Below, in pieces: positions 31,801 through 63,421 of a stretch of DNA of 64,000 nt; the first letter of the stretch is position 1, and each line of letters begins with the position of its first letter. The translations under genes were made by a program, and so were the position numbers. The DNA is taken from positions 35,522 to 99,521 of the forward strand of contig CABXBH010000003.1 in assembly GCA_902510415.1 (NCBI GenBank), given 5' to 3'. The notes beneath the pieces were generated by a model. It was given only the letters and a program-made list of their open reading frames with translations, made no database searches and had not been told where the DNA came from. This DNA comes from an uncultured Bacteroidota bacterium. GTDB lineage: Bacteria; Bacteroidota; Bacteroidia; Flavobacteriales; Flavobacteriaceae.

Positions 31801-31829
31801 AAAAAAACCCCGATTAACGGGGTTTTTCA
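31801..31829 (-). terminator. Rho-independent terminator (stem aaaaaccccg/cggggttttt)
   Basis: Perfect 10-bp stem, attaa loop, A/T flanks on both sides. Confidence 0.8.
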
Positions 31830-31846
31830 ATCTACAAAAACAAAAT

Positions 31847-32344: not shown

Positions 32345-32408
32345 AATTAAAATAATTTGTTAAAATATTATAACTATAAAAAAAAGAAATTATTGTGCGA
32401 TTAAAATA

Positions 32409-32849: not shown

Positions 32850-32954
32850 AATAAAAGATTTTTAGTTGCGAGTGCAATTAAGAAAAAAATTGAAAGAATT
32901 CCTAATGATATATATGTTTTAAAACAGTTTTGTAAATTGTTATAAATTAAAAAA

Positions 32955-34820
32955 ATGAGAAGAATATTTATTATTATACTATTTGCAAGCATAATTTCTA
33001 ATTCATATGCTCAAAAAGAAAGTAAGAAAAAGACAATTGATTCCTTAACCATTGATATGAAAATTAGCGAAGGGCTAATTACAACTTATTCTAATGAGAA
33101 AAATAATTTATTTTTTGAAATTTCTAAAAATTTATTGGGGAAAGAACTATTGGTTGTGACAAGATTTGCTCAACTTCCTGCTAATTATTCAGGATATCTC
33201 AATGCTGGTTCTAAAACCGCCGAACATGTAGTTCAATTTGAAAAAAATGGAACTAAAATTTTATTAAAAGAAGTAAGTTATACCAATATTGCAGATGATG
33301 AAGATCCTATTTCTGTTAGTGTTAAAGAAAATAATTTTAAACCTATTTTAGGAGCCTTTGAAATAAAGAATTCTGAAAAAGATAAATACCTAATAGATGT
33401 AACTAGTTATTTTATGTCTGACTCGCCAGGATTTAATATAATCAGATCCTATGAAAAGACTAATTATAAAATTGGTAGTGTTGACAAAAAAAGAAGTTTT
33501 ATAGACTCTGCTAGGAGTTTCCCTCAAAATACTGTAAGATATGTAGCATCGACAACAAGAAATGCTACTGGCCCAAGTGTATCTGACCCTAGAACTGGAG
33601 AGATTATAGAAAGTGATATTATATGGTATCATAACCATCTAAGATCATATAGAAATAGGTATTTATTAGAAACCGGTGCTGCGAATCCGAAAGCTAGAAC
33701 TTTAAATACTCCAGAAAAAGAAATAGGAGAAATGATGAGGCAAGTTATCGCACATGAAATAGGTCATGCGCTTGGACTACCCCATAACATGAAAGCAAGT
33801 AGTGCTTATCCAGTTGATTCGTTAAGGTCTGGAGATTTTACACAAAAATTTGGAATTGCAACGACGATTATGGATTATGCTAGATACAATTACGTTGCAC
33901 AGCCTGGAGATGAAAATATAAGATATGTCCGACAACTTGGTCCCTACGATAATTACTCCATAGAATGGGGTTATAGATACTATGGTCAAAGCCCGGAAGA
34001 AGAAAAAAATATTTTGAAAAAATTTGTTGATTCAAAATCATTAGATCCAGTTTATATGTTTGGAGGGTATGGAAATGATCCAAATTCACAAACAGAAAAT
34101 ATTGGGGATGATCCAGTGAAAGCAAGCACGTATGGAATTAAAAATTTGAAGATTGTTGCTAAAAATCTAATGGATTGGGTGATAGAGCCAAATGAAAACT
34201 ATGATGAACTTAATGAATTATATGGAGAATTATTAGGGGTTTACAGAAGATATATATATCATGTACATTCACTTATTGGTGGAATATATGACACTCCTCA
34301 TAACGAAAACCAAAAAGGTACTATTAGATATGTAAATGTTGATATTAATAAACAAATTGAAGCTCTTAGGTTTTTAGAGAAAAATTTGTGGAATACTCAA
34401 AGCTGGCTAATGGATAGTAAGTTAATATCTCAAATTAAGGGTGAAGGGGTTTTAAATTCAATTCAAGGACTTCAGCTTAGTGCATTGAATAGACTTCTAA
34501 ACTATGATAAACTTAACCGTATGCTATCAGCTAAAGAATCCCTGGAAGGAAATGCACTGTCAGTTAGTGGGTTAATTGATGATTTATTACAAACAATCAT
34601 TGAATCACCTAATAATCCTGACCTCTCTGAACAAAGACTTCAGCTTTACTTTGTTGAAAGGATTGATATATTAATGAGTGAAGAAAAATTAAACCCCTCA
34701 GTCAAAAGTATTCTCATGGAATCAAAAAATAATATTCACTCATTTGCTAAAAGAAAATCAAGATTATCTAAAGGGATAGTCAAATCTCATTATAAATATT
34801 TAAAAACTATAAGTGAATAA
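32955..34820 (+). CDS. zinc-dependent metalloprotease (DUF5117/DUF5118-type), apparently lacking an internal segment
   Basis: VIAHEIGHALGLPHNMKASSAYPVDSLRSGDFTQKFGIATTIMDYARYNYVAQPGD zincin motif; N-terminal LFFEISKNLLGKELLVVTRFAQLP; see finding at 33490-33560. Confidence 0.88.
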   Translation: MRRIFIIILFASIISNSYAQKESKKKTIDSLTIDMKISEGLITTYSNEKNNLFFEISKNLLGKELLVVTRFAQLPANYSGYLNAGSKTAEHVVQFEKNGTKILLKEVSYTNIADDEDPISVSVKENNFKPILGAFEIKNSEKDKYLIDVTSYFMSDSPGFNIIRSYEKTNYKIGSVDKKRSFIDSARSFPQNTVRYVASTTRNATGPSVSDPRTGEIIESDIIWYHNHLRSYRNRYLLETGAANPKARTLNTPEKEIGEMMRQVIAHEIGHALGLPHNMKASSAYPVDSLRSGDFTQKFGIATTIMDYARYNYVAQPGDENIRYVRQLGPYDNYSIEWGYRYYGQSPEEEKNILKKFVDSKSLDPVYMFGGYGNDPNSQTENIGDDPVKASTYGIKNLKIVAKNLMDWVIEPNENYDELNELYGELLGVYRRYIYHVHSLIGGIYDTPHNENQKGTIRYVNVDINKQIEALRFLEKNLWNTQSWLMDSKLISQIKGEGVLNSIQGLQLSALNRLLNYDKLNRMLSAKESLEGNALSVSGLIDDLLQTIIESPNNPDLSEQRLQLYFVERIDILMSEEKLNPSVKSILMESKNNIHSFAKRKSRLSKGIVKSHYKYLKTISE

Positions 34821-34822
34821 AA

Positions 34823-34912
34823 ATGGAATGGTATAAAAAAAATAGAAAGTATCTTTTTGCAGTAGTAATCTGTTGGTTTATATATAGATTAATAACTGCT
34901 GTGATGTATTAA
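34823..34912 (+). CDS. tiny single-TM protein (29 aa), candidate
   Basis: MEWYKKNRKYLFAVVICWFIYRLITAVMY* right after the metalloprotease. Confidence 0.35.
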   Translation: MEWYKKNRKYLFAVVICWFIYRLITAVMY

Positions 34913-35226
34913 TCAAGCATGTACTTAATTGCTAATGAACTTTTAGAAAATGAGATTTTTAATTCATTTTGCTTTTCTCTAGAACTCTTGATTTTTAGTG
35001 ATAAGTAATTAGTATTTGCAAATTTATTTATTAAATCATTTAATGGTCCACTTGGCAATAAACTTTTTTTATCTGGCTTATTAAAAATAGCATTCAATTG
35101 AAATTGAAAATTGTTTTGAAGTTTAAATTCATCAAATGATATGTTTTTAAATTCAACAAATTGAGAATTGTTGTTTGAAAATGAGTTTAAACTAAAAAAT
35201 AATATAAAAGCTATTATACGATGCAT
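34909..35226 (-). CDS. hypothetical secreted protein
   Basis: Signal peptide MHRIIAFILFFSLNSFSNN. Confidence 0.5.
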   Translation of the reverse strand: MHRIIAFILFFSLNSFSNNNSQFVEFKNISFDEFKLQNNFQFQLNAIFNKPDKKSLLPSGPLNDLINKFANTNYLSLKIKSSREKQNELKISFSKSSLAIKYMLD

Positions 35227-35333
35227 GTTGAAAGATAAAAAATAATTTATAATTCAGGTTTTTATTTTTTGAATAGTCTACTTTCCAAAGCATGGACTTC
35301 AATTTTTGTATATTGCGCAAAATAACCAATTTT

Positions 35334-36548
35334 ATGAAAAAGTATATTTATTTATTCTTATTTAGCGCACTAATTTTTTCATGCTCAGATAATTTTATCG
35401 ATAACCTCACAATAGAAGAACATATTCAATTAATCAAAAACCATGAAAGTAAAATTGAAATTAGTTTTGATGAGTTACCCGAAGTTTCTCAAAATCATAT
35501 AAATGAGCTAGAAAATAATATTACGGCTGATTTGATATTATACGCTGAAAGCATTGGCTATGAAATAAAACTTAGAAGGGAGTCCAGAAATTTGATTTCT
35601 CTTTTAAATATGCTTTACATATACTTTGACGAAAATGGCGAATTACTTTTTGATGAAAATTATGACGAAGACAATGACGGAGATTACGATATTTTTGATG
35701 AATGGGATAACTACATGTGTTTTGATATTCAGTTCCCTATATCGATAACTATGCCTAACGGTTCTCAAATTTCTATAGGAAATGAAGAGGAGTTATATGA
35801 GGCAATTGAAGAATATTATGAATCTAGTGATGAATATGACGGTGTGCCAGACATCAATTTTCCTATAAATATTATTTTCTTTTTCGAGAATGAAAATGGA
35901 AACGAAGATGAAGAAGTAATCGGAATTAATAGCTATGAAGAGCTTGAAATGTATTTTGATGTGTGTCCTGATGAGAATGGGTGGGATGATGAAAATTGGT
36001 TTGATATTGATTGTGTTGATCTTGTTTATCCGATTTCAATAGAAAATCCTGATGGAGAAATTCTTTCAGTTGAAAGCGAATATGAACTGCACGAGTATAT
36101 TGATCAATACTATCAAAATTGTAATAGTAATGACTGTGGAGATTTTTCATTAGTATACCCCTTAACTGTTGAGTATTATTCTGAAGCTAATGATCAAACT
36201 CAGATTTTGACGATAAATTCAGAAGAAGAGTTGCAAGAGCTTTTAGATGAGCATTGTTACAATGATGACGGTGAAGACGGACTTGATACATGTGGTGAAA
36301 TAGTTTACCCAATAACAGTAGAAGCTCCAAACGGTGATCAATTTACAGGAAATAGCGAAGAAGAAATAATGTCATTCATGGAAGAATGGTCTTCAAATAA
36401 TTGTAATACAATGGAGTGTGATACAGATTTTGAATTGGTTTTTCCAATTACAATGGAATTTGAAGATGAGCAAGGTGATATAATTGTAATGACAATACAG
36501 TCAGAGGTTATGCTAGAGGAAATAAATGCTCAGTACTGTGAAGATTAA
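35334..36548 (+). CDS. acidic lipoprotein with six tandem ~40-50 aa repeats
   Basis: MKKYIYLFLFSALIFSCSDN lipobox (start 35334); repeats of the form (F/V)(Q/V)(F/Y)PI-x-(I/V)-x(4-6)-G-x-x-x-x-x-(I/N)-x-(S/N)-E-E-E-L. Confidence 0.85.
   Translation: MKKYIYLFLFSALIFSCSDNFIDNLTIEEHIQLIKNHESKIEISFDELPEVSQNHINELENNITADLILYAESIGYEIKLRRESRNLISLLNMLYIYFDENGELLFDENYDEDNDGDYDIFDEWDNYMCFDIQFPISITMPNGSQISIGNEEELYEAIEEYYESSDEYDGVPDINFPINIIFFFENENGNEDEEVIGINSYEELEMYFDVCPDENGWDDENWFDIDCVDLVYPISIENPDGEILSVESEYELHEYIDQYYQNCNSNDCGDFSLVYPLTVEYYSEANDQTQILTINSEEELQELLDEHCYNDDGEDGLDTCGEIVYPITVEAPNGDQFTGNSEEEIMSFMEEWSSNNCNTMECDTDFELVFPITMEFEDEQGDIIVMTIQSEVMLEEINAQYCED
35710..36540 (+). repeat. six protein-level tandem repeats inside the acidic lipoprotein
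   Basis: FDIQFPISITMPNGSQISIGNEEELYEAIEEYYE / DINFPINIIFFFENENGNEDEEVIGINSYEELEMYFDVC / DLVYPISIENPDGEILSVESEYELHEYIDQYYQNC / SLVYPLTVEYYSEANDQTQILTINSEEELQELLDEHC / EIVYPITVEAPNGDQFTGNSEEEIMSFMEEW / ELVFPITMEFEDEQGDIIVMTIQSEVMLEEINAQYC. Confidence 0.85.
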
Positions 36549-36551
36549 AAA

Positions 36552-36776
36552 ATGGAAAAGCTAATTCTACTACTATTTATTCCACTTGTCTTTGCTTGTA
36601 GTGATGATGAAGATGCTCCTAATATGTGTGTTGATGAATCATTAATAAGCTCGGATATAGCTTGTCCTGAAGTTATTGATCCTGTTTGTGGTTGTGATGG
36701 TAACACATATAATAATAGTTGTGAGGCTTTTAATTGGTATGGTGTAATTGCATATGCTGATGGCCCATGTAATTAA
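36552..36776 (+). CDS. Kazal-type protease-inhibitor-like lipoprotein
   Basis: MEKLILLLFIPLVFAC lipobox; DPVCGCDGNTYNNSCEAFNWYGVIAYADGPC Kazal pattern. Confidence 0.85.
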   Translation: MEKLILLLFIPLVFACSDDEDAPNMCVDESLISSDIACPEVIDPVCGCDGNTYNNSCEAFNWYGVIAYADGPCN

Positions 36777-36788
36777 AAAAATATTTAA

Positions 36789-37253
36789 ATGAAGACATTA
36801 AATTTTAATTGGAAAATAATGGCTATGGTAATGATTCCTGTTGCTATTATTATGCTAATTTTTGGTAATGATCAAAATTCTAAAGCAAATATGGAAGATA
36901 AAGTTTATAAAATATTAACTCATGATGAATGGAAAGTTTCGAAGGAAAAAGGATTTATTCTAACCGATCTAGATACAAAAGATGGTTTTATTCATCTGTC
37001 TACTGCAAAGCAATTAGCGGGAACTTTATTTTATTATTTTGAAGATTATGAGACCTTAATATTAGTCCAATTTAACTCAAATGAACTTGGTAAAGAATTA
37101 GTTTTTGAAGACCCTATCCCTAAAGGAAATAGAAATGGTAAATTTCCTCATTTTTATTCAAAATTAGATGTCGAAAAAATCTCAAACTATTGGGAAATTA
37201 AAAGAGGTTCATTTAACCTTCCTGAAGAAGTAATTTTAAATCAAGAGAACTAA
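36789..37253 (+). CDS. DUF952 family protein
   Basis: KILTHDEWKVSKEKGFILTDLDTKDGFIHLSTAKQLAGTLFYYF...LGKELVFEDPIPKGNRNGKFPHFYSKL. Confidence 0.85.
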   Translation: MKTLNFNWKIMAMVMIPVAIIMLIFGNDQNSKANMEDKVYKILTHDEWKVSKEKGFILTDLDTKDGFIHLSTAKQLAGTLFYYFEDYETLILVQFNSNELGKELVFEDPIPKGNRNGKFPHFYSKLDVEKISNYWEIKRGSFNLPEEVILNQEN

Positions 37254-38696
37254 TTATTTAAATGTTAGATATCGGTCTTTAATTTTATTAATTCTAAGCA
37301 TTTTATAATCTAGAAAATAATTTTGATACAATTTCCAAGGCAAGCTAGAACCTTGTTTAGGAAACATGTGAGAAGACCTATGAATATATCCTGAATTTAA
37401 ATTAAGTAGAGGAGAAATATTCATCTTTTCGTCCAATGTATTAGGTGTAAAATATTTGTATTTTTTCTTTTCCATAAACTTAAAAAGTCTACTAGCGTAC
37501 TCACTTGTTAGATCACTTTTTAAAGTCCAAGAAGCGTTAGTATAACCAGCAAAAAAAATACAATTTGGTAATCCACTAAGCATTAAACCTTTATAGGTTA
37601 CCGCATTTGATGAATCATATGGGTTATTATCAATACTAATCTCAGACCCTCCAAAAGCCAAAAGTTTTAAGCCCGTTGCGCTTATAATTATATCAGCTTC
37701 TAAATTTTTACCTGATTTAAGTTTTAATCCCTTTTCAGTAAATGAATCTATATTATCAGTTATTATATTTGCTTTACCATGTCTTATCGCTTTGAATAAA
37801 TCTCCGTCAGGAGCTACACAAAATCTTTGATCCCAAGGTTTATAATTTGGTTCAAAATGAGGTTTAGCTGGAAAAGAGCCTAGTTGTTTTTGAGCAGATT
37901 TTACTAATAATTTTTTCATATAATTAGGCCATATTTTACAGGCTTGAAAAAATAAAATCTGAACAAAAATATTTTTAAATCTAATCAGTTTATGTGCAGT
38001 TTTTTTAGAGAAATACTTTTTTAAGAGTTTAGCATACTTATCACTATTAGGGAAAGCTCCCACATAAGTAGGCGATCTTTGAAGCATAGTAATTTCAGAA
38101 GTTTTATCTGCCATTTCTGGAACTATAGTTACTGCTGTTGCACCACTGCCTATAACAACGACCTTTTTATTTTTATAATCTAAATTATCAGGCCAATGTT
38201 GAGGATGGATAATGATTCCTTTAAAATCATTGATTCCTTTGTAATTTGGTGTATAACCTTTGTCATAATTATAATATCCTGTACAAGAAAACAAAAAACG
38301 AGAATAATATATTTCCTTTTTATCAAACCTATCTATGGTAGTAACAGCCCATAATTTTTTTTGAGTGTCAAAATTTGATTTTAAAACTTTTGTTTGATAT
38401 TTGATATGGTCATTTATTTTATATTCTTCGGCTGCTTCACATAGATATTTTAATATATTAGGGGCGTCGGCAAAAGATTTTGGATTATCCCAAGTTTTAA
38501 AAGAAAATCCAAAAGTATACATATCTGAATCAGACCTTATTCCAGGATATTTGAAAAGACTCCAAGTTCCACCAATTTCATGTCTAGCTTCCAAAATTTT
38601 ATAGGATTTTTCAGGATTTTTTCTCTGCAAATGGCATGCAGCACCAACTCCGGATAAACCAGCCCCAATTATGATAATGTCAGTGTAATTATTCAA
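37254..38696 (-). CDS. flavin-containing (Baeyer-Villiger type) monooxygenase
   Basis: IIGAGLSGVGAACHL, FAD/NADPH motifs, FKGIIIHPQHWPDNLDYKNKKVVVIGSGATAVTIVPEMA. Confidence 0.93.
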   Translation of the reverse strand: MNNYTDIIIIGAGLSGVGAACHLQRKNPEKSYKILEARHEIGGTWSLFKYPGIRSDSDMYTFGFSFKTWDNPKSFADAPNILKYLCEAAEEYKINDHIKYQTKVLKSNFDTQKKLWAVTTIDRFDKKEIYYSRFLFSCTGYYNYDKGYTPNYKGINDFKGIIIHPQHWPDNLDYKNKKVVVIGSGATAVTIVPEMADKTSEITMLQRSPTYVGAFPNSDKYAKLLKKYFSKKTAHKLIRFKNIFVQILFFQACKIWPNYMKKLLVKSAQKQLGSFPAKPHFEPNYKPWDQRFCVAPDGDLFKAIRHGKANIITDNIDSFTEKGLKLKSGKNLEADIIISATGLKLLAFGGSEISIDNNPYDSSNAVTYKGLMLSGLPNCIFFAGYTNASWTLKSDLTSEYASRLFKFMEKKKYKYFTPNTLDEKMNISPLLNLNSGYIHRSSHMFPKQGSSLPWKLYQNYFLDYKMLRINKIKDRYLTFK

Positions 38697-38748
38697 GTTA
38701 TTATTTTCATTATGGTTCGTATTATCTTCAATGGTTAAATCTATATAA

Positions 38749-38844
38749 TTATTTCTTTATATAGTTTTTATAGAAAGAATATAGAATTGCATAAATAATA
38801 AGCACAATCCACAGATATATAAAAACATCATTTTTATAACCCAT
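38749..38844 (-). CDS. tiny single-TM protein (31 aa), candidate
   Basis: MGYKNDVFIYLWIVLIIYAILYSFYKNYIKK* upstream of the monooxygenase. Confidence 0.35.
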   Translation of the reverse strand: MGYKNDVFIYLWIVLIIYAILYSFYKNYIKK

Positions 38845-38954
38845 AATTGGTTAATTTTAGAATAGTTAGTTGTTACAATTTAATAAAAATTAAATAATTA
38901 GATATTTCTTATGATTTACTAAATTTGTTTTATAATCCGATAATAATATTTATA

Positions 38955-39374
38955 ATGAAAAGAAAAGTAAATGCAATTTGGAAAGGAGATGGGCCTACAG
39001 GAAGTGGCGTTTTAAATGCTCAAAGTGGTGCATTTGATAATATGCCTTATAGTTTTAAAACCCGATTTGAAAATGATAACGGAATACTTGGGACAAACCC
39101 TGAGGAACTTATTGCTGCAGCACTTGCAGGTTGTTTTAATATGAAATTAAGTTTTCTGTTAAACGATGCAAATTTTAATCCTGATGAATTAAATACAGAT
39201 GCTATTTTAACTTTTGAAAATGGTAAAATAATATCAATAAATTTAAATTTAAGTGGTAAAGTACAAGAAATAACCCACGAGAAATTCATTGAATTAGCAA
39301 ATGAAGCCAAAAATAATTGCCCGATTTCGGGTGTTTTAAATTGTCCGATTTCATTAAGTGCATCTTTAATCTAA
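38955..39374 (+). CDS. OsmC/OhrA-family peroxiredoxin-like protein
   Basis: MKRKVNAIWKGDGPTGSGVLN...GTNPEELIAAALAGCFNMKLSFLL...CPISGVLNCPISL. Confidence 0.92.
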   Translation: MKRKVNAIWKGDGPTGSGVLNAQSGAFDNMPYSFKTRFENDNGILGTNPEELIAAALAGCFNMKLSFLLNDANFNPDELNTDAILTFENGKIISINLNLSGKVQEITHEKFIELANEAKNNCPISGVLNCPISLSASLI

Positions 39375-39511
39375 TGAATAGCATGAACAAAATAATCAAT
39401 AAATTAATCAATGTTTGTGTTATATTAATTGTGTACGGATTATTCTTTGATATTAAATTCAATAATAAATTCATTCAAAAAGAAATAAGAATTCATTTAA
39501 TACAACTATGA
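39374..39511 (+). CDS. small membrane protein (45 aa), candidate
   Basis: MNSMNKIINKLINVCVILIVYGLFFDIKFNNKF...; overlaps both neighbours at start/stop codons. Confidence 0.4.
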   Translation: MNSMNKIINKLINVCVILIVYGLFFDIKFNNKFIQKEIRIHLIQL

Positions 39512-39936
39512 AAAATATTAGATATCCATTAATCCTGATAAGTATTGCTCTTTGTATTTCTGGAATAAGGTGGTTAATTAACCCTGAGCCTTGGATGCTA
39601 GATCAGGTTGCAAATGAAGAGCGACTAAAAATGACTTTTGCAGAACTTTTTATAATTGAAGGCAATTCAACTTTAGGTGCATATTTAACCCAAATCTATC
39701 GGTTTTTAGGTCTCTATGTTTTAGGGATTGGGAGTATACTTCTTTCTTTCTCTGATACAAAATTCTTAAGCATACTTAGTTTTAGAAACAGATATTTAGT
39801 TATCCTTGGAATTCTATTAGTTTCAAATCTAGCATTAGCATATATGTGGATATCTTCTTCTCATTTTATATATATAATGTGGTTAGCGATAGCGCTATAC
39901 CTTTACAGCTTATATCATCACATTAAGATGAAATAA
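39508..39936 (+). CDS. hypothetical membrane protein
   Basis: Four hydrophobic segments; ATGA overlap with preceding small ORF. Confidence 0.65.
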   Translation: MKNIRYPLILISIALCISGIRWLINPEPWMLDQVANEERLKMTFAELFIIEGNSTLGAYLTQIYRFLGLYVLGIGSILLSFSDTKFLSILSFRNRYLVILGILLVSNLALAYMWISSSHFIYIMWLAIALYLYSLYHHIKMK

Positions 39937-52335: not shown

Positions 52336-52340
52336 ATTAC

Positions 52341-53780: not shown

Positions 53781-53820
53781 TACTAAACTACTTTTTCACT
53801 AACTTGCAGAAATACTAAAC
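53781..53820 (+). repeat. degenerate copy of intergenic repeat (actttttcactaacttg core)
   Basis: tactaaactactttttcactaacttgcagaaatactaaac. Confidence 0.6.
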
Positions 53821-53831: not shown

Positions 53832-54545
53832 ATGAAAAAAATACTTTGCCTATTTACAGTTTTATTATTTTTTGTTAACACACACTCTCAAAAACAAGCT
53901 ATTGAAAAACTAACATATGAAGACGCTAATAATATTGACTATTTTATTAAAGTCAAAAACAATACAAGAGTTCTCGAGTATATAACTCAGGATGGAAATA
54001 GTCTGAAAGTAGGAGATACACTTGTTTTAGGTAGACCAACTTCTGAATCTGCAATTTCAACTACCTATGGTGGTGGTGCTTCTACAGGTGGTATTAGTGC
54101 AGGTGGCGCAAGAACAAAAACACGGGTTAATAAGGAGTTTGAATTTATCAGATTAGGAAGGCCTGCAGGCTTTGGTAATGTAATGTCTGCAATGAATGGT
54201 GAAGGTGCAAGTATGGCGGGTGTAAATTTGGCAGGAGAAGTTGTCAAAATCGACGAAATAAAAGTTGCTCATAAAGGATCTAAGAAGAAGCCTTTACGTT
54301 TAATCCTAATTATGGGTGAGATAAATGGAAGGGCTTTTGGAATAAATAAATATCTAAGCGTTCTTGACACTGATCTTGCAATGTCATATGGTGAGATACT
54401 ATTAAAGAATAAAAAAATGACGAGGGATGAGGCAATTGCAAAACTTAAAGAAGCAAAAGACCTAATGGACTTAGGGCTTATGTCTGAAGAAGAATTTAAA
54501 GCTATGAGAAGTGAATTACAACCTTTAATAATGGGTAATAAGTAA
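53832..54545 (+). CDS. secreted protein with C-terminal SHOCT-like segment
   Basis: Signal peptide; MTRDEAIAKLKEAKDLMDLGLMSEEEFKAMRSELQPLI. Confidence 0.7.
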   Translation: MKKILCLFTVLLFFVNTHSQKQAIEKLTYEDANNIDYFIKVKNNTRVLEYITQDGNSLKVGDTLVLGRPTSESAISTTYGGGASTGGISAGGARTKTRVNKEFEFIRLGRPAGFGNVMSAMNGEGASMAGVNLAGEVVKIDEIKVAHKGSKKKPLRLILIMGEINGRAFGINKYLSVLDTDLAMSYGEILLKNKKMTRDEAIAKLKEAKDLMDLGLMSEEEFKAMRSELQPLIMGNK

Positions 54546-54632
54546 AGCAATATAGGATATGAAAAAGAAAAATATGTTCTATACTTTTTATATATTAAAT
54601 ATTAATAGTATAGATAATATGGAAAAAAATAA

Positions 54633-54890
54633 ATGAAAAAGCTGATACTATTACTATTTATTACTCTTGGTCTCGCTTGTATTGATAACAATGATAATGA
54701 TGCGCCTGATATTTGTGTTGATGAAACATTAATCTCCTTAGAAACTCCTTGCTTAACGGTAGAGGAGCCTGTTTGTGGGTGCGACGGAAATACTTATAGT
54801 AATAGTTGTGTAGCTTTTAATTATTATGGTATAATAGAATATGAAGAAGGTATCTGTCCGGGAGACTGTAAATCATTTGATTGCGATTAG
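54633..54890 (+). CDS. Kazal-type lipoprotein, paralog of 36552-36776
   Basis: MKKLILLLFITLGLAC; EPVCGCDGNTYSNSCVAFNYYGIIEYEEGIC. Confidence 0.85.
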   Translation: MKKLILLLFITLGLACIDNNDNDAPDICVDETLISLETPCLTVEEPVCGCDGNTYSNSCVAFNYYGIIEYEEGICPGDCKSFDCD

Positions 54891-54929
54891 TCAATCATTT
54901 GGTGATAAAAAAATTAATACTAAAAGAAA

Positions 54930-55136
54930 ATGGATAAACTTGAAAAACTTATATATTCTGTTAAACATCTTCCTTCATTTTTGTATTTTGGTTCTGTTGG
55001 GTTAATAGGATATGACATTTATTGTGATATAATTAAAGAGACAGAGTTTCTTAATGAATATACAGAGACTCCATTATACATTTTATTTTTTTATATTACA
55101 TATTTAGGATTGAAAAACTTAAAAAAAAATAAATAA
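54930..55136 (+). CDS. small membrane protein
   Basis: Two hydrophobic segments; intact 68-aa ORF. Confidence 0.5.
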   Translation: MDKLEKLIYSVKHLPSFLYFGSVGLIGYDIYCDIIKETEFLNEYTETPLYILFFYITYLGLKNLKKNK

Positions 55137-55142
55137 TATTTT

Positions 55143-55301
55143 ATGAAAAAAAACACATACTATACTTTAAGCTTTATATTAGTTGGCCTTGTGTTATTAG
55201 GCGGAAGATATCTTGGATATGGATTTCTTGAAAGGATAATTTCAGCACTTGTAATAGGTGGATTATTTGAATTAGTTTACAGAAAAAAACTTAAAGATTA
55301 A
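55143..55301 (+). CDS. 52-aa small membrane protein (not in track)
   Basis: MKKNTYYTLSFILVGLVLLGGRYLGYGFLERIISALVIGGLFELVYRKKLKD*. Confidence 0.5.
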   Translation: MKKNTYYTLSFILVGLVLLGGRYLGYGFLERIISALVIGGLFELVYRKKLKD

Positions 55302-55318
55302 ATTTTAATAAAATAAAG

Positions 55319-55447
55319 ATGAAAACAAAAAACAAAGAGTTAATTAATAACATATCTCAAACGATCGCTAAGGAGTTAAAAAAAGCTAATGGGGGTAATA
55401 AGAAACTTATTGATACACTTCAAAAGATTTTAGACAAGGCTAAATGA
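55319..55447 (+). CDS. 42-aa basic helical small protein (not in track)
   Basis: MKTKNKELINNISQTIAKELKKANGGNKKLIDTLQKILDKAK*. Confidence 0.4.
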   Translation: MKTKNKELINNISQTIAKELKKANGGNKKLIDTLQKILDKAK

Positions 55448-55465
55448 AAAAAAGCTAACTAGATA

Positions 55466-55969
55466 ATGAAGGAGAATAAATATAGTTACTTGTCACAAGA
55501 ACAAATGTTAGAGGTTTGTAATCTAATTAACCCTAATACAAAATGGGAATTTCATCAATACTTAGACAATGATGGAAAGGGTGGTGATGATTGTTATGAG
55601 TTTTTAGGTAAAGATGAATCTTGTATTCAATTTAATATACACCAAGCAGAGGATGATGAAATAAGGTGTTATTTAAAAGGTGACTGGGATAATGATGAAG
55701 TTCCCCCTGAAAAATTTGTACTTATAGATAATTATTTAGACTCTCAATTGTCTGGACCATCAACATTATTAGAAAAGAAAGCTGATAAAGATTATGGTGA
55801 AAAAGTTGAAGAGTGGGACGAAGACCATGCACTAGATTTGGTAATGAATGATATGGTTAAAGACTTGACAGAAGAGGATTTTAAACCAAATAATACCAAT
55901 CCAGCAAAGGATGCAGGATGCCTATTTGTTTTTATTTTTCTTATCGGCATAATTTTATTCTTGAACTAA
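55466..55969 (+). CDS. acidic hypothetical protein with C-terminal TM anchor
   Basis: DAGCLFVFIFLIGIILFLN tail anchor; intact ORF. Confidence 0.6.
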   Translation: MKENKYSYLSQEQMLEVCNLINPNTKWEFHQYLDNDGKGGDDCYEFLGKDESCIQFNIHQAEDDEIRCYLKGDWDNDEVPPEKFVLIDNYLDSQLSGPSTLLEKKADKDYGEKVEEWDEDHALDLVMNDMVKDLTEEDFKPNNTNPAKDAGCLFVFIFLIGIILFLN

Positions 55970-55982
55970 ACCAATACTATTA

Positions 55983-56426
55983 CTATATCCATCTTCTTGT
56001 TTTAGCCTTATATAACGAATATTCTTTACCAAATTTTTCTGTAAGGAAAATCTCTTCTCTTTTGATTTGAAAGCTATTTATCCAAAAATAAAAAAATAAA
56101 GGTGTTGTAATTGAGAAAATATTCAAATAAAATATTGATGTTGAAATAACTATCATCAACAAACCTAAATACATCGGGTTTCTTGAATATTTATAGATTC
56201 CGGAAGTTATAAGTTTGTTAACTTTTTTAAACTTTATTGGATCAATTGTAGTTTTTGATTTTATAAACTTAAAAATTGGATTAATTAAAATAAGCATCCC
56301 AATTAAAAGTATAAGAATAGACATTAATTTTTGATTTGGTAAATGAAATAAATCAATTTTTTTGGATGAAAAATAATTAGAACTAGCTAAAATCAGAACT
56401 AATATAGGGGGTGGTATTTTTAACAT
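55983..56426 (-). CDS. isoprenylcysteine carboxylmethyltransferase-like (PEMT/ICMT) membrane methyltransferase
   Basis: LITSGIYKYSRNPMYLGLLMIVIS...REEIFLTEKFGKEYSLYKAKTRRWI. Confidence 0.9.
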   Translation of the reverse strand: MLKIPPPILVLILASSNYFSSKKIDLFHLPNQKLMSILILLIGMLILINPIFKFIKSKTTIDPIKFKKVNKLITSGIYKYSRNPMYLGLLMIVISTSIFYLNIFSITTPLFFYFWINSFQIKREEIFLTEKFGKEYSLYKAKTRRWI

Positions 56427-56458
56427 TTTTTAAATATTACTATAATGTTTCTTAATAC

Positions 56459-56647
56459 TTAAGCTTCTTTTTTACCATCGAAATACATTGAAGCCATCCA
56501 GCCCAAAACAGATAGCCAAAACCCGCCCTCATATATAGGATTCTCTTGAAGTATATCAGTAAAAAAACCCAGGAATACAAGCGCCAGGAATACAACCATT
56601 ATTATTATGATAATCTTTGTTCTATTAGACAAATTATGTTTTTTCAT
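56459..56647 (-). CDS. small membrane protein
   Basis: Two hydrophobic segments; 62 aa. Confidence 0.45.
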   Translation of the reverse strand: MKKHNLSNRTKIIIIIMVVFLALVFLGFFTDILQENPIYEGGFWLSVLGWMASMYFDGKKEA

Positions 56648-56667
56648 TCCTACAATTTATAATAATT

Positions 56668-57051
56668 TTATTCCATCGCTCTTATAACTGGAGCTCCCAG
56701 AATTCCTGAAACACAATATTCATTAGTAAGTGCAACTAGTTCTGAAAACATTGATTCTCTCTGCTGACCTAAATTCATATGTGCTCCAGCTCCTTCAGGG
56801 CCATTATAAATTTCCGTTATACCATATAGCGTATTTCCTGTTTCACCGCTTTCAGGGTCTAACGGATTATTTAATTCTGGGGATTTTAGTACTGCATAAC
56901 ACAATATTATCGGTTCAACATCACCTTCAATATGATGAGTTTCCCTCATAAATTTTTCATGTGTTTCTAAAAAAGATTCCATTCTTAGAGTATCATTATT
57001 AGGTACTACAAAAGCTACGTGAAAGCCGATACATCCTGTTTTAATTTTCAT
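56668..57051 (-). CDS. hypothetical protein (possible dimeric alpha/beta-barrel)
   Basis: MKIKTGCIGFHVAFVVPNNDTLRMESFLETHEKFM...; start at 57051. Confidence 0.5.
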   Translation of the reverse strand: MKIKTGCIGFHVAFVVPNNDTLRMESFLETHEKFMRETHHIEGDVEPIILCYAVLKSPELNNPLDPESGETGNTLYGITEIYNGPEGAGAHMNLGQQRESMFSELVALTNEYCVSGILGAPVIRAME

Positions 57052-57235
57052 AATTATAATTTTTAACATTAATATCTACAATTTACAATAATTTTTAGGC
57101 TTCATTTTCAGAATCTTTTATAAACTTTTGGAACTCTGTGGGATCTTTTAAGAAAATAATTACTAGATTTCATATTAGTCAATCTAATTTAACATAACGA
57201 AAATCTTTTACTTATTTAAAAATCATACGTAAATA

Positions 57236-57640
57236 ATGACTACACAAGCAGGAGAAATACTTTCATACAACGGAGAAAAAACAACTATTGCAACAGAGCC
57301 ACTAAAACCTTATTTGGAAACTAGAAGTGATATAAATTTTATTTTTAAATCTACCGCCTTAGTTAGGGGGTATATTGGCACCTGGAAAATTAAAAACAAA
57401 AAACTTTATCTTATTTCTCTAATTGGTTTTATTGAAAATAATGAAAAGGTAGACCTTAACTATTTATTTCCGAACAAAAAAGAAGTTTTTGCTGATTGGT
57501 TCTCTGGTCAAATTAGAATTCCTGAGGGGAATCTTCTTAAAGAAATCAATTTAGGATACGCCTCTGTTTTTGAAAGAGACAGAGCACTTAATTTTAATAA
57601 AGGAATATGGATTAGCGATGATACTATATATAAGATATAG
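57236..57640 (+). CDS. hypothetical protein
   Basis: Intact 134-aa ORF followed by the intergenic repeat. Confidence 0.6.
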   Translation: MTTQAGEILSYNGEKTTIATEPLKPYLETRSDINFIFKSTALVRGYIGTWKIKNKKLYLISLIGFIENNEKVDLNYLFPNKKEVFADWFSGQIRIPEGNLLKEINLGYASVFERDRALNFNKGIWISDDTIYKI

Positions 57641-57641
57641 A

Positions 57642-57693
57642 GCAACATACTATAAACCATAAACAACTTTTTCACTAACTTGTAGATACATTA
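57642..57693 (+). repeat. intergenic repeat copy
   Basis: gcaacatactataaaccataaacaactttttcactaacttgtagatacatta. Confidence 0.9.
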
Positions 57694-57733
57694 GCCTCTT
57701 TGTTTTTAGATAATAATTAAACCAGCATAGGAT

Positions 57734-57916
57734 ATGAAAAAGCCTCTTTATACAATTGCATCCCTCATAACTATGTTATTGATTAGTGAAAGGGCTCTTG
57801 ATATTTTCTTTGATATTGGGCCTTTTGCTTCAAAATCTATTAAGTTACTTTTTGTTGTAACAGCATTAATTTTATTTGCAATTCATTTTATAAAAACAAA
57901 TAATAAATCAAAATGA
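57734..57916 (+). CDS. small membrane protein
   Basis: 60 aa, two hydrophobic segments; ATGA overlap with next gene. Confidence 0.5.
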   Translation: MKKPLYTIASLITMLLISERALDIFFDIGPFASKSIKLLFVVTALILFAIHFIKTNNKSK

Positions 57917-58839
57917 AAAAGCTAATACTATTACTATTTATTCCATATGTAATAATTGCTCAAGACTTCAAAATTGAACATAAAGTGAACGATGATAAAA
58001 CTGTTGATTTTTCATATAAAAACTTGAGCGCGAATACAATCACAGTGATAGTCAATTTTAGTTTTTTAGAAAATACTATGAGCACAACAAGAGTGGTAGA
58101 AAAGGTGTCAAAACCTGAGGGCAAGCTGTTTAAACTAAAGCCTACGAATAACGAACAAAATATAGGCTTTAATTATTCTTATTTGTTTTTTAATCATAAT
58201 ATAAATCCAAAAGTAGATGATAACTTTGTTTATATATTGCCATATAAAAAAGAAACCCAAATGTTAGTAGAGGAGCTTTCTTACTTAGGCTCAACCTACT
58301 CAAACAAAGAAGAACCGAAAGGGTGGAAATCTTACTCATTCTCAAGCAATGAAGTTCAAAAAATATTTGCTGTAAGAAAAGGTGTTGTTATTGATGTTGT
58401 TAGAGACTATGATGTTGATACAACAAAAACATTCGCATATTATAACAAAATGAACTCCGTTAAAATAGAGCATAATGATGGCACAATAGCTTTATACTCA
58501 GGATTTAATAAAGATGAAATATACGTCAATGTTGGAGATATAGTATATCCAAAATATAATACACTTGGAAAAACAAAAGTTTATGATGCAAGAAAAAAAC
58601 ACAGAATCAATTTTTCTTTATTCTATTATTCAACAAAAAATGGTGTAAAATTATCGAGTCTATTTAAAAACGATCAAAAGGAAGTAATTTATATAACACC
58701 AACTTTTTATCAAAATGGTGGGTCTATAAACTTGAAGAAAGATTATTTTTATGAATCAGATTATGATGACAAGACACTATTTCAGAACCTTAGTAAAAGA
58801 CAAATCAAAAAATATAAAAAAGGAAACTTAGTATTATAA
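57913..58839 (+). CDS. secreted M23-like (LytM fold) protein with apparently degenerate catalytic residues
   Basis: MNSVKIEHNDGTIALYSGFNKDEIYVNVGDIVYPKYNTLGKTKVYDARKKHRINFSLFYYS aligns by eye to N.V.I.H.DG...Y.HL....V..G..V..G..IG.TG...HLHFE. Confidence 0.6.
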   Translation: MKKLILLLFIPYVIIAQDFKIEHKVNDDKTVDFSYKNLSANTITVIVNFSFLENTMSTTRVVEKVSKPEGKLFKLKPTNNEQNIGFNYSYLFFNHNINPKVDDNFVYILPYKKETQMLVEELSYLGSTYSNKEEPKGWKSYSFSSNEVQKIFAVRKGVVIDVVRDYDVDTTKTFAYYNKMNSVKIEHNDGTIALYSGFNKDEIYVNVGDIVYPKYNTLGKTKVYDARKKHRINFSLFYYSTKNGVKLSSLFKNDQKEVIYITPTFYQNGGSINLKKDYFYESDYDDKTLFQNLSKRQIKKYKKGNLVL

Positions 58840-58864
58840 TAAACAAAATGGGAAGAAGGACAAA

Positions 58865-58920
58865 GCAACATACGATAAACCATAAACAACTTTTTCACTA
58901 ACTTGTAAGAACTAACCTTA
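58865..58920 (+). repeat. intergenic repeat copy (variant 3' end)
   Basis: gcaacatacgataaaccataaacaactttttcactaacttgtaagaactaacctta. Confidence 0.9.
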
Positions 58921-58929
58921 AAAAACATT

Positions 58930-59274
58930 ATGAAAAACCTTTTTATTTTATTAATATTTTTAATTTTATTTCAAAGTTGTTTTAGTTACAAATCTGTGAA
59001 TTATGATACTATTTCAAATGATAATAAAAAACAAAAGATTCAAGTTGAAATGCTTGATAGAACAAAATTTAATGGTCAATTAGTTTCTAAAGATGATAAG
59101 ACAATGACTTTAGAAAATAATGGAAGCACGCAAACAATACTTAAGAAGGATATTTACGAAATCCAAGTTGTAAAGTTTTCAATACTTAAAACTCTAGGTG
59201 GTGTTGCTAAAGGAGGTGCCTGGATAGCTGCCGCAGCAGGTATGATTGTTATTATTGCTCTAGCAGGAGTATAA
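58930..59274 (+). CDS. small lipoprotein
   Basis: MKNLFILLIFLILFQSCFSY lipobox; C-terminal hydrophobic segment. Confidence 0.6.
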   Translation: MKNLFILLIFLILFQSCFSYKSVNYDTISNDNKKQKIQVEMLDRTKFNGQLVSKDDKTMTLENNGSTQTILKKDIYEIQVVKFSILKTLGGVAKGGAWIAAAAGMIVIIALAGV

Positions 59275-59285
59275 AAACATACGAA

Positions 59286-59873
59286 ATGAAAAAGCTAATA
59301 CTATTACTATTTATTCCACTTGTCTCATTTGGACAAATAAATGAACAAGACTTTAATTTACCCTTTAGTGATATATCAGAATATCCAACCGAGTTTTCTC
59401 AAGCTAATATTGTTTCAAGAATGATTGAGGGTCTTGGGTATAGATATTATTGGGCTTCAAAATCACTAAGTCAAACAGACTTAGAATATAAGTCAAGTGA
59501 GGATGCAAGATCTACATTGGAAATAATCAAACATATATATAGCCTAACTAAGATGATTTCTTCATCGTTTAAAAATCAACAATATGAGTTTTCTGATGTG
59601 AATCATAGTTACAAAGAATTAAGAGAAAAAACGTTATTAAATTTGAAATATATTCACGAACAATTAAAATTAAATCCTGACTTCTCAAAGCTAAAGATAA
59701 GGTTTGAAAGAGGTGGTAATATGATGGAGTTTCCGTTTTGGAATCAAATTAATGGGCCAATTTCTGATGCTTTGTGGCATTGTGGTCAAGTGGTTATGAA
59801 TAGAAGAGCAAGTGAAAATCCTTTACAATCAGGGGTAAATGTATTTATAGGAAAAACTTCAGGCTCAAACTAA
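59286..59873 (+). CDS. secreted DinB-like protein
   Basis: MKKLILLLFIPLVSFGQ signal; IVSRMIEGLGYRYYWASKSL...NGPISDALWHCGQVVMNRR. Confidence 0.6.
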   Translation: MKKLILLLFIPLVSFGQINEQDFNLPFSDISEYPTEFSQANIVSRMIEGLGYRYYWASKSLSQTDLEYKSSEDARSTLEIIKHIYSLTKMISSSFKNQQYEFSDVNHSYKELREKTLLNLKYIHEQLKLNPDFSKLKIRFERGGNMMEFPFWNQINGPISDALWHCGQVVMNRRASENPLQSGVNVFIGKTSGSN

Positions 59874-59900
59874 ACCAACATACATTAAACAACTAAAAGA

Positions 59901-59950
59901 TACGATAAACCATAAATAACTTTTTCATTAACTTGTAAGAACTAACCTTA
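59901..59950 (+). repeat. intergenic repeat copy (variant 3' end)
   Basis: tacgataaaccataaataactttttcattaacttgtaagaactaacctta. Confidence 0.9.
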
Positions 59951-59961
59951 AAAAAAATATA

Positions 59962-60492
59962 ATGAAAAACTACTTAAAATTATTTAAAGGGTGTGCTATT
60001 TTATTCATATCTCTTTTACTATTGGGATGTAATAATCCATCAGAAAAACAATTAGAATTAGAATTGGCTCAAAGTACATTAGAAAAGAATATCACTATGT
60101 ATGAAACTGTTTGGAATAAAGTTATTAATGATAGAGAAATAGATTTAATTAATGAAGATTCCTTTGATAAGGATGTTACAGCATTAGCAACCTCAGGAGG
60201 AGACATAATTGGATTAGAAAACTTCCAAAACTATTATAATAATTATTTGACAGGGTTCTCAGATGCTGAATTTACGATTGTAGATATTTTTGGTCAAGGG
60301 GATAAAATGGTGAAACATTGGAATTTTAAAGGCACTCACGACGGAGATTTTTTTGGGGTTCCTGCAACAGGTAAATCTGTAGATATCTCAGGTACTACTT
60401 TAATTAAAATGAAAGATGGAAAAATAGCCTCCGAGCAAGATTATATGGACTTCTTAAGTTTTTATACACAATTAGGGTTATTAGGTCAGTAA
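59962..60492 (+). CDS. SnoaL-like/ester cyclase-like lipoprotein
   Basis: Lipobox LLLGC; WNFKGTHDGDFFGVPATGKSVDISGTTLIKMKDGKIASEQDYMDFLSFYTQLGLL. Confidence 0.85.
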   Translation: MKNYLKLFKGCAILFISLLLLGCNNPSEKQLELELAQSTLEKNITMYETVWNKVINDREIDLINEDSFDKDVTALATSGGDIIGLENFQNYYNNYLTGFSDAEFTIVDIFGQGDKMVKHWNFKGTHDGDFFGVPATGKSVDISGTTLIKMKDGKIASEQDYMDFLSFYTQLGLLGQ

Positions 60493-60510
60493 ACTAAACC
60501 GACATAAGAT

Positions 60511-60633
60511 ATGAAAATAAAAGAATTTATTTATAATAAAGACACAAAGGAATCTAATTTAGCAGGGGTGTTATTCGTTGTTTTAGTAACAGCAATATGT
60601 ATAGGAATACTTTATTATTTCTTTTGGATCTAA
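60511..60633 (+). CDS. 40-aa single-TM protein (not in track)
   Basis: MKIKEFIYNKDTKESNLAGVLFVVLVTAICIGILYYFFWI*; preceded by gacataagatATG repeat variant. Confidence 0.45.
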   Translation: MKIKEFIYNKDTKESNLAGVLFVVLVTAICIGILYYFFWI

Positions 60634-60646
60634 ACCAACATACGAT

Positions 60647-60826
60647 ATGAAAAAGGATGAAAAAAGAGCGGTTGGAATCATATTTATAATTGCCTTAATT
60701 TTAATTTTAGTTTTAGAGTATTCTAATTATAATACAGAAAAAAGGCTTAAATATGAAAGAGAAAAAGCTGAGGAAAGATTAGAGCTTTCAAAATTAAAAG
60801 ACTCAATAGAAATTAAAAAAGGCTAA
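60647..60826 (+). CDS. 59-aa single-TM protein (not in track)
   Basis: MKKDEKRAVGIIFIIALILILVLEYSNYNTEKRLKYEREKAEERLELSKLKDSIEIKKG*; preceded by accaacatacgatATG. Confidence 0.5.
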   Translation: MKKDEKRAVGIIFIIALILILVLEYSNYNTEKRLKYEREKAEERLELSKLKDSIEIKKG

Positions 60827-60838
60827 CCAACATACGAT

Positions 60839-61078
60839 ATGAAAAAAGAATACATCGGAGAATCAGGATATATTTTGTTTGCTTTAACAGCTATTGTTGA
60901 CTTGTTAAAAACAGCTAATGATTGGGATTCAATTTCAAATACGATTTTCGAGGCCTCATATATTATTGCATTAGTATTAGTTACTTTTGATGTTTACTTA
61001 GGATGGAAAAAGAAAAAAAATGTAATAGATCGAATAATTTTACTAATTGTTTTTATTGCTCTTTTCATCTTTTTTTAA
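60839..61078 (+). CDS. small membrane protein
   Basis: 79 aa, hydrophobic; preceded by accaacatacgatATG. Confidence 0.5.
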   Translation: MKKEYIGESGYILFALTAIVDLLKTANDWDSISNTIFEASYIIALVLVTFDVYLGWKKKKNVIDRIILLIVFIALFIFF

Positions 61079-61109
61079 GTACTAATATCAATCTTAACCA
61101 ACATACAAT

Positions 61110-61280
61110 ATGAAAAAGCTAATACTCATTTTGGTAATTATCATAGCTACATTAAATCTATTATATACTTTTGGTTATCAAGGTGAGCCAATGAGTCAAT
61201 TTGAGTTTCTGACTCGAACACTTGGGAGTATAACTGCTATCTTAGGTGGTCTATTTTTATTAATAAAGAAACTTAAATGA
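61110..61280 (+). CDS. 56-aa membrane protein (not in track)
   Basis: MKKLILILVIIIATLNLLYTFGYQGEPMSQFEFLTRTLGSITAILGGLFLLIKKLK*; preceded by accaacatacaatATG. Confidence 0.45.
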   Translation: MKKLILILVIIIATLNLLYTFGYQGEPMSQFEFLTRTLGSITAILGGLFLLIKKLK

Positions 61281-61299
61281 AAAAGCTAATACTATAATT

Positions 61300-61401
61300 A
61301 TGTACGAAATTTACAAAGATATGACCCTTTGGGATTTGGCTTTTATAGTTTTTTTAAGTGTTATTTTTACTGCTTATAATTATTACAAAAAGAAAAAATG
61401 A
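61300..61401 (+). CDS. 33-aa single-TM protein, candidate (not in track)
   Basis: MYEIYKDMTLWDLAFIVFLSVIFTAYNYYKKKK*. Confidence 0.35.
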   Translation: MYEIYKDMTLWDLAFIVFLSVIFTAYNYYKKKK

Positions 61402-61423
61402 AAAACAACTAACAAAAAGGCTT

Positions 61424-61573
61424 ATGGAAATTTTTGATGACTTAGGTTTTGAGGAAATTGTTTCTACACTGTTGGTTATTGCTGTAATTGTCTATTTTAC
61501 ATACGTACGTGTTAAGTATTTGTTTAGGGGTGTTAAAAAGAAGAAGGACAAAGTAACACACGATAAACCATAA
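61424..61573 (+). CDS. 49-aa single-TM protein whose C-terminus runs into the intergenic repeat
   Basis: MEIFDDLGFEEIVSTLLVIAVIVYFTYVRVKYLFRGVKKKKDKVTHDKP*; start more plausible than 61358. Confidence 0.45.
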   Translation: MEIFDDLGFEEIVSTLLVIAVIVYFTYVRVKYLFRGVKKKKDKVTHDKP

Positions 61574-61603
61574 ACAACTTTTTCACTAACTTGTAGATAC
61601 ATT
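61553..61603 (+). repeat. intergenic repeat copy overlapping the end of an ORF
   Basis: gtaacacacgataaaccataaacaactttttcactaacttgtagatacatta. Confidence 0.9.
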
Positions 61604-61618
61604 ACACAACTACATACT

Positions 61619-61993
61619 ATGCTTGAAGTTCCTGACTACTCAAAAATATTTGATAAATACTATGATGTTTTAAAAGATAAAATAATTAGATATGCTAAAG
61701 GAAATTTAGAAGGTGTACCTAAATTTTTTACTGAAAAGTATAATCACGATGACCCAAATTGCAATATAGAAGAATCTATTCAGGACTTTTTGGGCAGTGA
61801 ATTAAGGGATATTCTTCCTAAAATGCACAGTGAAAGGATAGAGCTTGAAAATGAGGAGGTTGGAGACGATGAAGATGAAGCTTGGGAATGTGGTTTTTGG
61901 GGTGATTGTGACGAAGAGTGGGGCTACCTGATGAATGATATAATTAGCAACATAGTTGAAACGGAGAAGCTTGCAACACACGATAAATTATAA
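61619..61993 (+). CDS. acidic hypothetical protein whose C-terminus runs into the intergenic repeat
   Basis: Intact 124-aa ORF ending ...EKLATHDKL*. Confidence 0.55.
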   Translation: MLEVPDYSKIFDKYYDVLKDKIIRYAKGNLEGVPKFFTEKYNHDDPNCNIEESIQDFLGSELRDILPKMHSERIELENEEVGDDEDEAWECGFWGDCDEEWGYLMNDIISNIVETEKLATHDKL

Positions 61994-62024
61994 ACAACTT
62001 TTTCACTAACTTATAGATACATTA
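61973..62024 (+). repeat. intergenic repeat copy overlapping the end of an ORF
   Basis: gcaacacacgataaattataaacaactttttcactaacttatagatacatta. Confidence 0.9.
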
Positions 62025-62082
62025 ACCTACTTAATAGAAATGTAATTATTAAGTAAGAAATAATGCTTAACCAACATACGAT

Positions 62083-62271
62083 ATGAATAAGTTAAAAGAT
62101 GCAAGAGACGTTTTAGGTGCAATATGGATTATAAGTATTGTTGTTCGAATTATTAGTAAAGTAACCGATTTATATGTTATGCCAAAATGGAGTGGTTATA
62201 TGATAATGGGAATTATTTTTACAGTTGCTATATTATCTGCATATATCTATTTTAAAGAAAAAAAGAAATGA
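62083..62271 (+). CDS. small membrane protein
   Basis: 62 aa, two hydrophobic segments; preceded by accaacatacgatATG. Confidence 0.5.
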   Translation: MNKLKDARDVLGAIWIISIVVRIISKVTDLYVMPKWSGYMIMGIIFTVAILSAYIYFKEKKK

Positions 62272-62292
62272 AAAAGCTAATACTATTACAAT

Positions 62293-63015: not shown

Positions 63016-63421
63016 ACCCCCAAGGTACAATAATTTTAAAAGAGAAGGATATGGGAAGTTCTAACTTTGGTGGGTAGTGGTTTAATATGTTCTTCCATAC
63101 TACATACATAAAAGCAATTTACAATTGCATCTTTTAACATATATAAACCTACCCTACTAACATACTTTTCTACAAAGTTAAAGTTCAATACAGGATACCT
63201 ATGTTTGATTAATCAATTTTTTTCAAATATATATGACAAGCAGAGTAGGTTGTTTATTGGATGTGTATGTATGATACATAACGTACTTAGTTGTTTAAGG
63301 TATATATACTTACTATATATAGTATATATAATGTATAGAGCAACATACGAACTATCAATATCCTTGTTTCTTACTTGACAAATCCTAAACAACTTACTAC
63401 CTTAACTAAAAATAATTCAGG

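Follow-up and report, generated by a model that had tools for sequence, protein, structure and literature searches.

What has brought together the small genes that fill the last part of this contig, and why is their order not kept among relatives? The window, the whole stretch of 64,000 nt analysed here, is positions 35,522 to 99,521 of contig CABXBH010000003.1 (C3) in the genome of an uncultured member of the Flavobacteriaceae (G000, assembly GCA_902510415.1; 1.25 Mb, 68% complete), and the contig stops at the window end. Its array consists of small + strand genes with a few - strand genes between them, many of which, judged by eye, encode signal peptides or membrane spans, and the genes are separated by a repeat of ~52 bp, here called P. 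The initial annotation of this DNA took the repeat to mark either gene capture and shuffling units, possibly of an integron, or a common control element. Our reading, to which we give a probability of roughly 0.6, is that the window end belongs to a tRNA-anchored accretion site in which genes change places and are exchanged through recombination at P and at a second module, S. The gene arrangement is well supported; the recombination pathway is what we infer from it.

All copies of P reported in the initial annotation, five near-identical ones and a degenerate one near 53781, exist and are far from chance, CAACTTTTTCACTAACTTG with up to three mismatches being matched 7 times in the window versus 0.02 times expected (100 shuffles). 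Six of these matches are P copies and the seventh, with 3 mismatches, lies at 19414. The promoter-like features of the window are:

53783..53820, + strand: degenerate P before the open reading frame (ORF) at 53832 (profile match, E 2.7e-7).
57643..57695, + strand: P before the ORF at 57734.
58866..58914, + strand: P with a variant 3' end before the ORF at 58930 (family F5).
59898..59945, + strand: P with a variant 3' end before the ORF at 59962 (SnoaL-like).
61555..61606, + strand: P before the ORF at 61619.
61974..62027, + strand: P overlapping the end of the ORF at 61619; its box is TAACTTAT, without TAnnTTGY.
About 63341..63403, + strand: P2-like promoter (TTGACA, then TACCTTA) before the S74/YadA-type gene at the window end, recognised by eye (profile E 0.61, below the cut).

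In the array loci as a whole a profile detects 59 copies of P at E<0.01, all 59 oriented with the array and 53 followed by a start codon within 60 nt. The box TAnnTTGY is present in 57 of the 59 at a steady distance from the starts, a count which represents one well-kept match and not 57 independent ones, the copies being homologous by descent. Upstream of flank genes in the window it is found in 4 of 29 cases. In Flavobacterium psychrophilum TAnnTTGY is motif SM5, with transcription mapped to start 5 nt past the box, and its authors place it among motifs for which control by alternative sigma factors is most likely (PMC9723704); an SM5-type box upstream of genes is what the 57 copies possess. 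P looks like a promoter module because of this box and its position relative to the starts. Family F5 follows P in 8 of the 59 copies. Within the window's genome P occurs only in the window array and at the end of contig C4 near tRNA-Asn, and a genome-wide promoter family is ruled out by this confinement to array loci.

A shorter element, the leader, is ACCAACATACGAT-ATG, about 14 nt, which often runs on into S. It precedes the four ORFs named in the initial annotation (60647, 60839, 61110 and 62083), and weaker forms are also present at 57734 and 60511. CAACATACGATA with up to two mismatches is matched 17 times in the window versus 5.1 expected, a number reached in no shuffle. Among 22 array loci CCAACATACGATA, again with up to two mismatches, occurs 100 times, and what comes next is S in 40, another ATG gene in 23, P in 18 and something else in 19, several of the last being a second promoter type with TTGACA. 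The leaders and S blocks of the window are:

57723..57734, + strand: weak leader, 2 mismatches, before the ATG at 57734.
60500..60511, + strand: leader, 2 mismatches, before the ATG at 60511.
60636..60647, + strand: leader CAACATACGATA before the ATG at 60647.
60828..60839, + strand: leader CAACATACGATA before the ATG at 60839.
61099..61110, + strand: leader, 1 mismatch, before the ATG at 61110.
62072..62083, + strand: leader CAACATACGATA before the ATG at 62083.
54633..54664, + strand: S, 2 mismatches, the start and signal peptide of a Kazal-type lipoprotein.
57913..57944, + strand: exact S, the start of a 308-aa ORF (family F25).
59286..59317, + strand: exact S, the start of a 195-aa ORF (family F52).
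61277..61294, + strand: cut-off S remnant over the stop codon of the ORF at 61110 (family D5).
62268..62289, + strand: cut-off S remnant over the stop codon of the ORF at 62083 (families D3, D5).

S is a shared block that supplies the start codon and signal-peptide code. It begins 58 of 301 array-strand genes (at least 85% identity over 30 nt), distributed over 29 families which have no mutual similarity after the first 20 residues (E<0.01). In the 46 genes whose proteins start MKKLILLLF, codons 4, 6 and 8 are CTA in 40, 46 and 42 cases, respectively, versus a background of 12% of Leu codons elsewhere in the same genes. Judged by this codon usage S is a copy made at the DNA level and not convergent protein sequence, because CTA at these positions lies far above background. 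Identity of S across families and loci is 0.944 versus 0.844 for the remainder of same-family genes. A lipobox-like Cys is located at residues 13-18 in 28 of the 58 S genes, and 16 more have an AQ/GQ/SQ-type end. A Kazal-type lipoprotein gene in the window's flank (36552..36776, + strand) also has an S-like start (3 mismatches over 32 nt); related flank Kazal copies in loci L073 and L074 have a different signal peptide, and the window's gene could be a source or a recipient of S. The S blocks and remnants, the P2-like promoter and the P copy on C4 are additions to the initial annotation, in which the S module, the tRNA anchor and the frequent single-gene units had gone unseen.

Comparison with other species separates two parts of the window:

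53832..62271, + strand with few - strand genes between: array genes, of families that recur elsewhere in other orders.
25052..39933, no strand assigned: conserved chromosomal far flank, families F68 to F13, with a matching neighbourhood beside other species' arrays.

Gene adjacency is conserved in 36 of 213 testable cases in the arrays (24 of 201 without the F35-F42 pair) and in 232 of 238 cases in the tRNA-side flank, and shuffled order keeps 6.5% of adjacencies (standard deviation 2.4; maximum 15.3% in 500 shuffles). Array order is close to random. Both neighbours differ in 222 of 274 ortholog pairs (at least 80% identity) from 34 families. Where the upstream neighbour differs, homology ends between -20 and +79 nt in 196 of 239 pairs and, where the downstream neighbour differs, between -20 and +59 nt in 210 of 246; it runs on for at least 200 nt in 19 pairs upstream and 13 downstream, perhaps reflecting differing gene calls. 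The homology of moved genes usually stops at gene edges, and the moving units are often single genes. Mean interspecies identity is 84.1% for array genes versus 78.7% for flank genes over 64 genome pairs, which are not independent of each other in this or the adjacency comparison, and under coverage and E-value cut-offs that favour similar short genes. Between species, array genes usually resemble one another more closely than flank genes do, and have therefore been exchanged. Modules are present at 173 of 261 junctions; module-bearing junctions are conserved in 14 of 139 cases versus 22 of 74 for bare ones. The initial annotation would have been refuted by a gene order fixed among relatives and a repeat spread over the whole genome; neither is observed, and its capture or shuffling reading stands. 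Its two possibilities hold together, P looking like a shared promoter and the genes being shuffled and also exchanged between species.

Two sets of genes behave differently within this pattern. The opposite strand of the arrays carries likely carotenoid genes (L066, 9691-11773), one for a member of the amine-oxidase family, probably CrtD, and the one next to it; carotenoid families also occur in L064, L067, L068, L072 and L098, their mutual order being kept while the surrounding small genes change. Family F30 has a gene in the window's flank (38955-39368) and elsewhere lies inside arrays, twice close behind P (L064 and the L066 neighbourhood), a possible capture of a neighbouring gene.

Copies bounded by the modules are preserved in individual arrays. 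In L070 the 156-bp gene F71 is present twice, identical, with S on either side and different neighbours; the repeat (201 nt, 99.5%) starts within S and stops in the signal-peptide code of the next gene, a different one for each copy. In L066 the duplication of a Kazal gene runs from its S start into the following S (272 nt, 92.6%). Two unrelated genes of L066 are each preceded by a copy of an 84-nt P2 promoter (95%), and their likeness stops just past the start codon. Signal peptides have also been replaced: F5 possesses its own type in nine copies and the S type in a tenth, joined at the lipobox Cys, and similar swaps are observed in F1 and F76. S remnants with no signal peptide after them are located at the ends of genes and of arrays. 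The cut points of S are many, which rules out one universal breakpoint. As far as sequence can establish them, shuffling, exchange, module-bounded copies and signal swaps are established.

Where the array is anchored is indicated by the second contig. A further P copy in the window's genome lies at C4:72979-73033, 0.9 kb from the end of C4 and 1.1 kb from tRNA-Asn(GTT), and the array therefore continues beyond the end of C3. The window array and the end of C4 are most likely one island split by the contig break, because the window holds the far chromosomal flank (25.0-39.9 kb) and C4 the near flank with tRNA-Asn. At 63421-64000 the contig stops within a gene that has 42-bp repeats of YadA-head type and begins an S74-type end, and a separate C-terminal S74-like fragment precedes the P copy of C4 (L005, about 1540-1690); YadA/S74-type genes (family F38) recur in other species' arrays and may explain the contig break.

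Islands adjoin tRNA-Asn in 13 congeneric genomes, with additional copies at tRNA-Ala (G018, G015 and G342, the last of a second genus) and tRNA-His (G003). P is present in 17 of the 21 genomes of the genus (E<=0.1, the window's genome counted, one of them only at 0.077), in most of these carriers in arrays beside tRNA-Asn, and array genes are mostly directed towards the tRNA. One of the four genomes lacking a repeat match, G020, has the whole island on one contig, with S copies and profile-level matches to P. Across the family the repeat was detected in 4 of 397 sampled genomes, two of which are from the second genus, where it is present in 2 of 6.

Most array ends have direct repeats of GAGTGCCAAATGAGTTGCC type next to the tRNA, which look like putative integrase arm sites. 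The array of G007 (L067) has an end of this type buried in its interior, together with an integrase fragment and a copy of the tRNA-Asn terminator. In G011 (L078) the 3' end of tRNA-Asn is repeated 8.8 kb away around an integrase-bearing element, and G012 (L073) has a similar buried repeat; repeated tRNA 3' ends are found only in L078 and L073. The tRNA site appears to gain material in layers, because of the buried array end, the terminator copy and the repeated tRNA 3' ends. Tyrosine integrases are located at the tRNA in L074 and L078, and a full-length relative of one integrase exists in 2 of 21 genomes, with fragments in 3 more. The integrative element of L078 (9620-18532), between two tRNA-Asn 3' ends, carries genes for a tyrosine integrase, a DNA methylase and a DEAD/ResIII helicase and is restriction-like. 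In the 68%-complete genome of the window no integron-like integrase or tyrosine recombinase was found near the array, and its two PF00589 tyrosine recombinases, 305 aa each, are on contigs C2 and C20.

In the explanation we favour, a marine genus of the Flavobacteriaceae would have an accretion site anchored at tRNA-Asn, of which the window end forms one side, with P (~52 bp), the leader (~14 nt) and S placed at most gene junctions. General recombination would join incoming or internal pieces by way of the homology of the modules (30-55 bp), and P and S have the length that this requires. Between two modules an arriving gene would gain a promoter, or a start and an export signal, and elements with tyrosine integrases that use the tRNA may occasionally bring new material. 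The result would be a common pool of proteins, most of them exported or located in membranes, with a single type of promoter.

Several observations weigh against this explanation, in addition to the two limits on the identity comparison given above. Array order is kept somewhat above random, falling within the shuffle range without the F35-F42 pair, and F13, F58, F8 and F35 have an interspecies identity below that of flank genes. At 88 of the 261 junctions there is no module at all, and because of these bare junctions modules are not the sole route of gene movement. Of the 22 conserved bare junctions 12 are the single gene pair F35-F42, leaving 10 of 62 without it; module junctions are less conserved than bare ones only weakly, because the difference depends on that pair. 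The many cut points of S also fit illegitimate joining. Exact matches of P, S and the tRNA-side arm sequence were absent from viral contigs, and no carrier was found.

The strongest rival, appreciably less probable than accretion with recombination at P and S, is that the modules are kept only for expression and export and are spread by gene conversion, shuffling being due to module-independent processes. In its favour are the promoter-like box of P at a steady distance from the starts, genes that move in spite of the bare junctions and an effect of modules on adjacency that hangs on one pair. Against it, synonymous sites in S are kept, the duplicates of L070 and L066 terminate inside modules and the leader is also found before P, where no start codon comes next.

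A site-specific recombinase, Xer-like or an integrase, using the leader ACCAACATACGAT as its core site and moving genes cassette by cassette is unlikely, more so than gene conversion. The leader does occur ahead of S, P1, P2 and further continuations alike, what comes after gene F27 is leader and P in L076 but leader and S in L078, and the tyrosine integrases of L074 and L078 sit at the same tRNA. Such an enzyme is contradicted by the cutting of S at many positions and not one, by the absence of hairpins at P or S and of the leader from many junctions, and by the location of the only two recombinases of the window's genome away from the array.

It is very improbable that single-cell amplification, or assembly across repeats, has produced a false gene order. 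Many records are AG-numbered isolates, which we take to be single-cell genomes, and contigs, the window's included, break in repeats; against this, the same kind of array is present in the NAT90 record, titled as a metagenome-assembled genome (MAG), flanks on the same contigs keep their gene order and the island of G020 lies on a single contig.

Integrons are arrays of small co-oriented genes with variable content and order and a repeated element at their junctions. In the present array, too, the genes are small, co-oriented and variable in content, with one short repeat to a junction; it grows at one end, and 59 of 59 P copies have the same direction (opposite-strand genes also being present). 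The integron idea of the initial annotation is nevertheless refuted as far as tested, since an attC-like hairpin signal is absent from both strands of the 18 P and 40 S sites examined (mean z 0.14 to 0.46), no integron integrase was found nearby in the 68%-complete genome, promoters occur throughout the array and coding 5' ends are shared.

Three described systems come closer. PeSL mobile regulatory cassettes of T4-type phages are intergenic repeats that carry an early promoter and a stem-loop, associated with small novel genes (PMC4503421, citing Arbiol 2010 and Comeau 2014). They share with the array short promoter-bearing (here promoter-like) intergenic repeats at small-gene junctions and intense shuffling between related genomes; in contrast, the array lies in a bacterial chromosome, as its flanks are chromosomal, has no stem-loop and adds a signal-peptide-coding module and a tRNA anchor. 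In the mycoplasma vpma/vsp lipoprotein loci a conserved 5' untranslated region and signal-peptide code are combined with DNA rearrangement, and the vpma locus is drawn with a tRNA gene and a tyrosine recombinase gene (PMC2268961). A 5' region and signal-peptide code common to the genes of the locus, here S, is the point of likeness. The vpma genes, however, form a single lipoprotein family, in which only one promoter is active and Xer1 inverts DNA inside a strain, whereas the present system involves 29 unrelated families, many promoters and exchange between species, with no recombinase found at the window's array. Tycheposons and tRNA-linked flexible islands of marine bacteria have a variable region starting from a tRNA, tyrosine integrases and exchanged cargo (PMC10872708), all of which have counterparts here in the start at tRNA-Asn (13 congeneric genomes; also tRNA-Ala and tRNA-His), the integrases of some loci and the exchange of cargo. 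They differ in that gene-by-gene shuffling with shared modules is not described for tycheposons in the available portion of PMC10872708, and most arrays here are without an intact integrase. The array fits the full definition of none of these three systems. A search of the open-licence PubMed Central (PMC) literature yielded no earlier description or parallel of this arrangement, which is weak evidence of absence.

The array proteins have no common function, because PADLOC matches are few and the Pfam assignments are a mixture (SnoaL, Kazal, OsmC, HlyIII, carotenoid genes, MFS and YadA/S74). The survey covered 72 representatives from a list of 77, five being left out and the flank family F20 being among the 72; a defence island was rejected as only three PADLOC models matched, with one protein each. 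Between the conserved flank and the array (39952-47631) the window carries large genes, which encode a DUF2779 protein of 634 aa and an AAA_16-domain protein of 1598 aa. At 48573-53516 follow consecutive genes for an AAA_5 (MoxR-like) ATPase, a leucine-rich-repeat protein and a DUF2201 metallopeptidase/VWA-like protein, none of which was seen in the other fetched arrays.

A broader interpretation can be offered only tentatively, as a possibility we hold less probable than its converse: the modules may constitute a bacterial counterpart of exon shuffling, an adaptor system with P and S as standard joints through which captured unrelated genes are expressed, perhaps by an alternative sigma factor, and exported to the surface, the pool spanning species and at least two genera. 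If so, an ocean bacterium with a small genome would get a gene expressed and exported in one recombination step, and the origin of orphan lipoproteins and small membrane proteins would become directly testable. The arrays would also represent a clear case of signal-peptide code moving apart from its protein, and would provide natural adaptors for comparing gene exchange among marine species.

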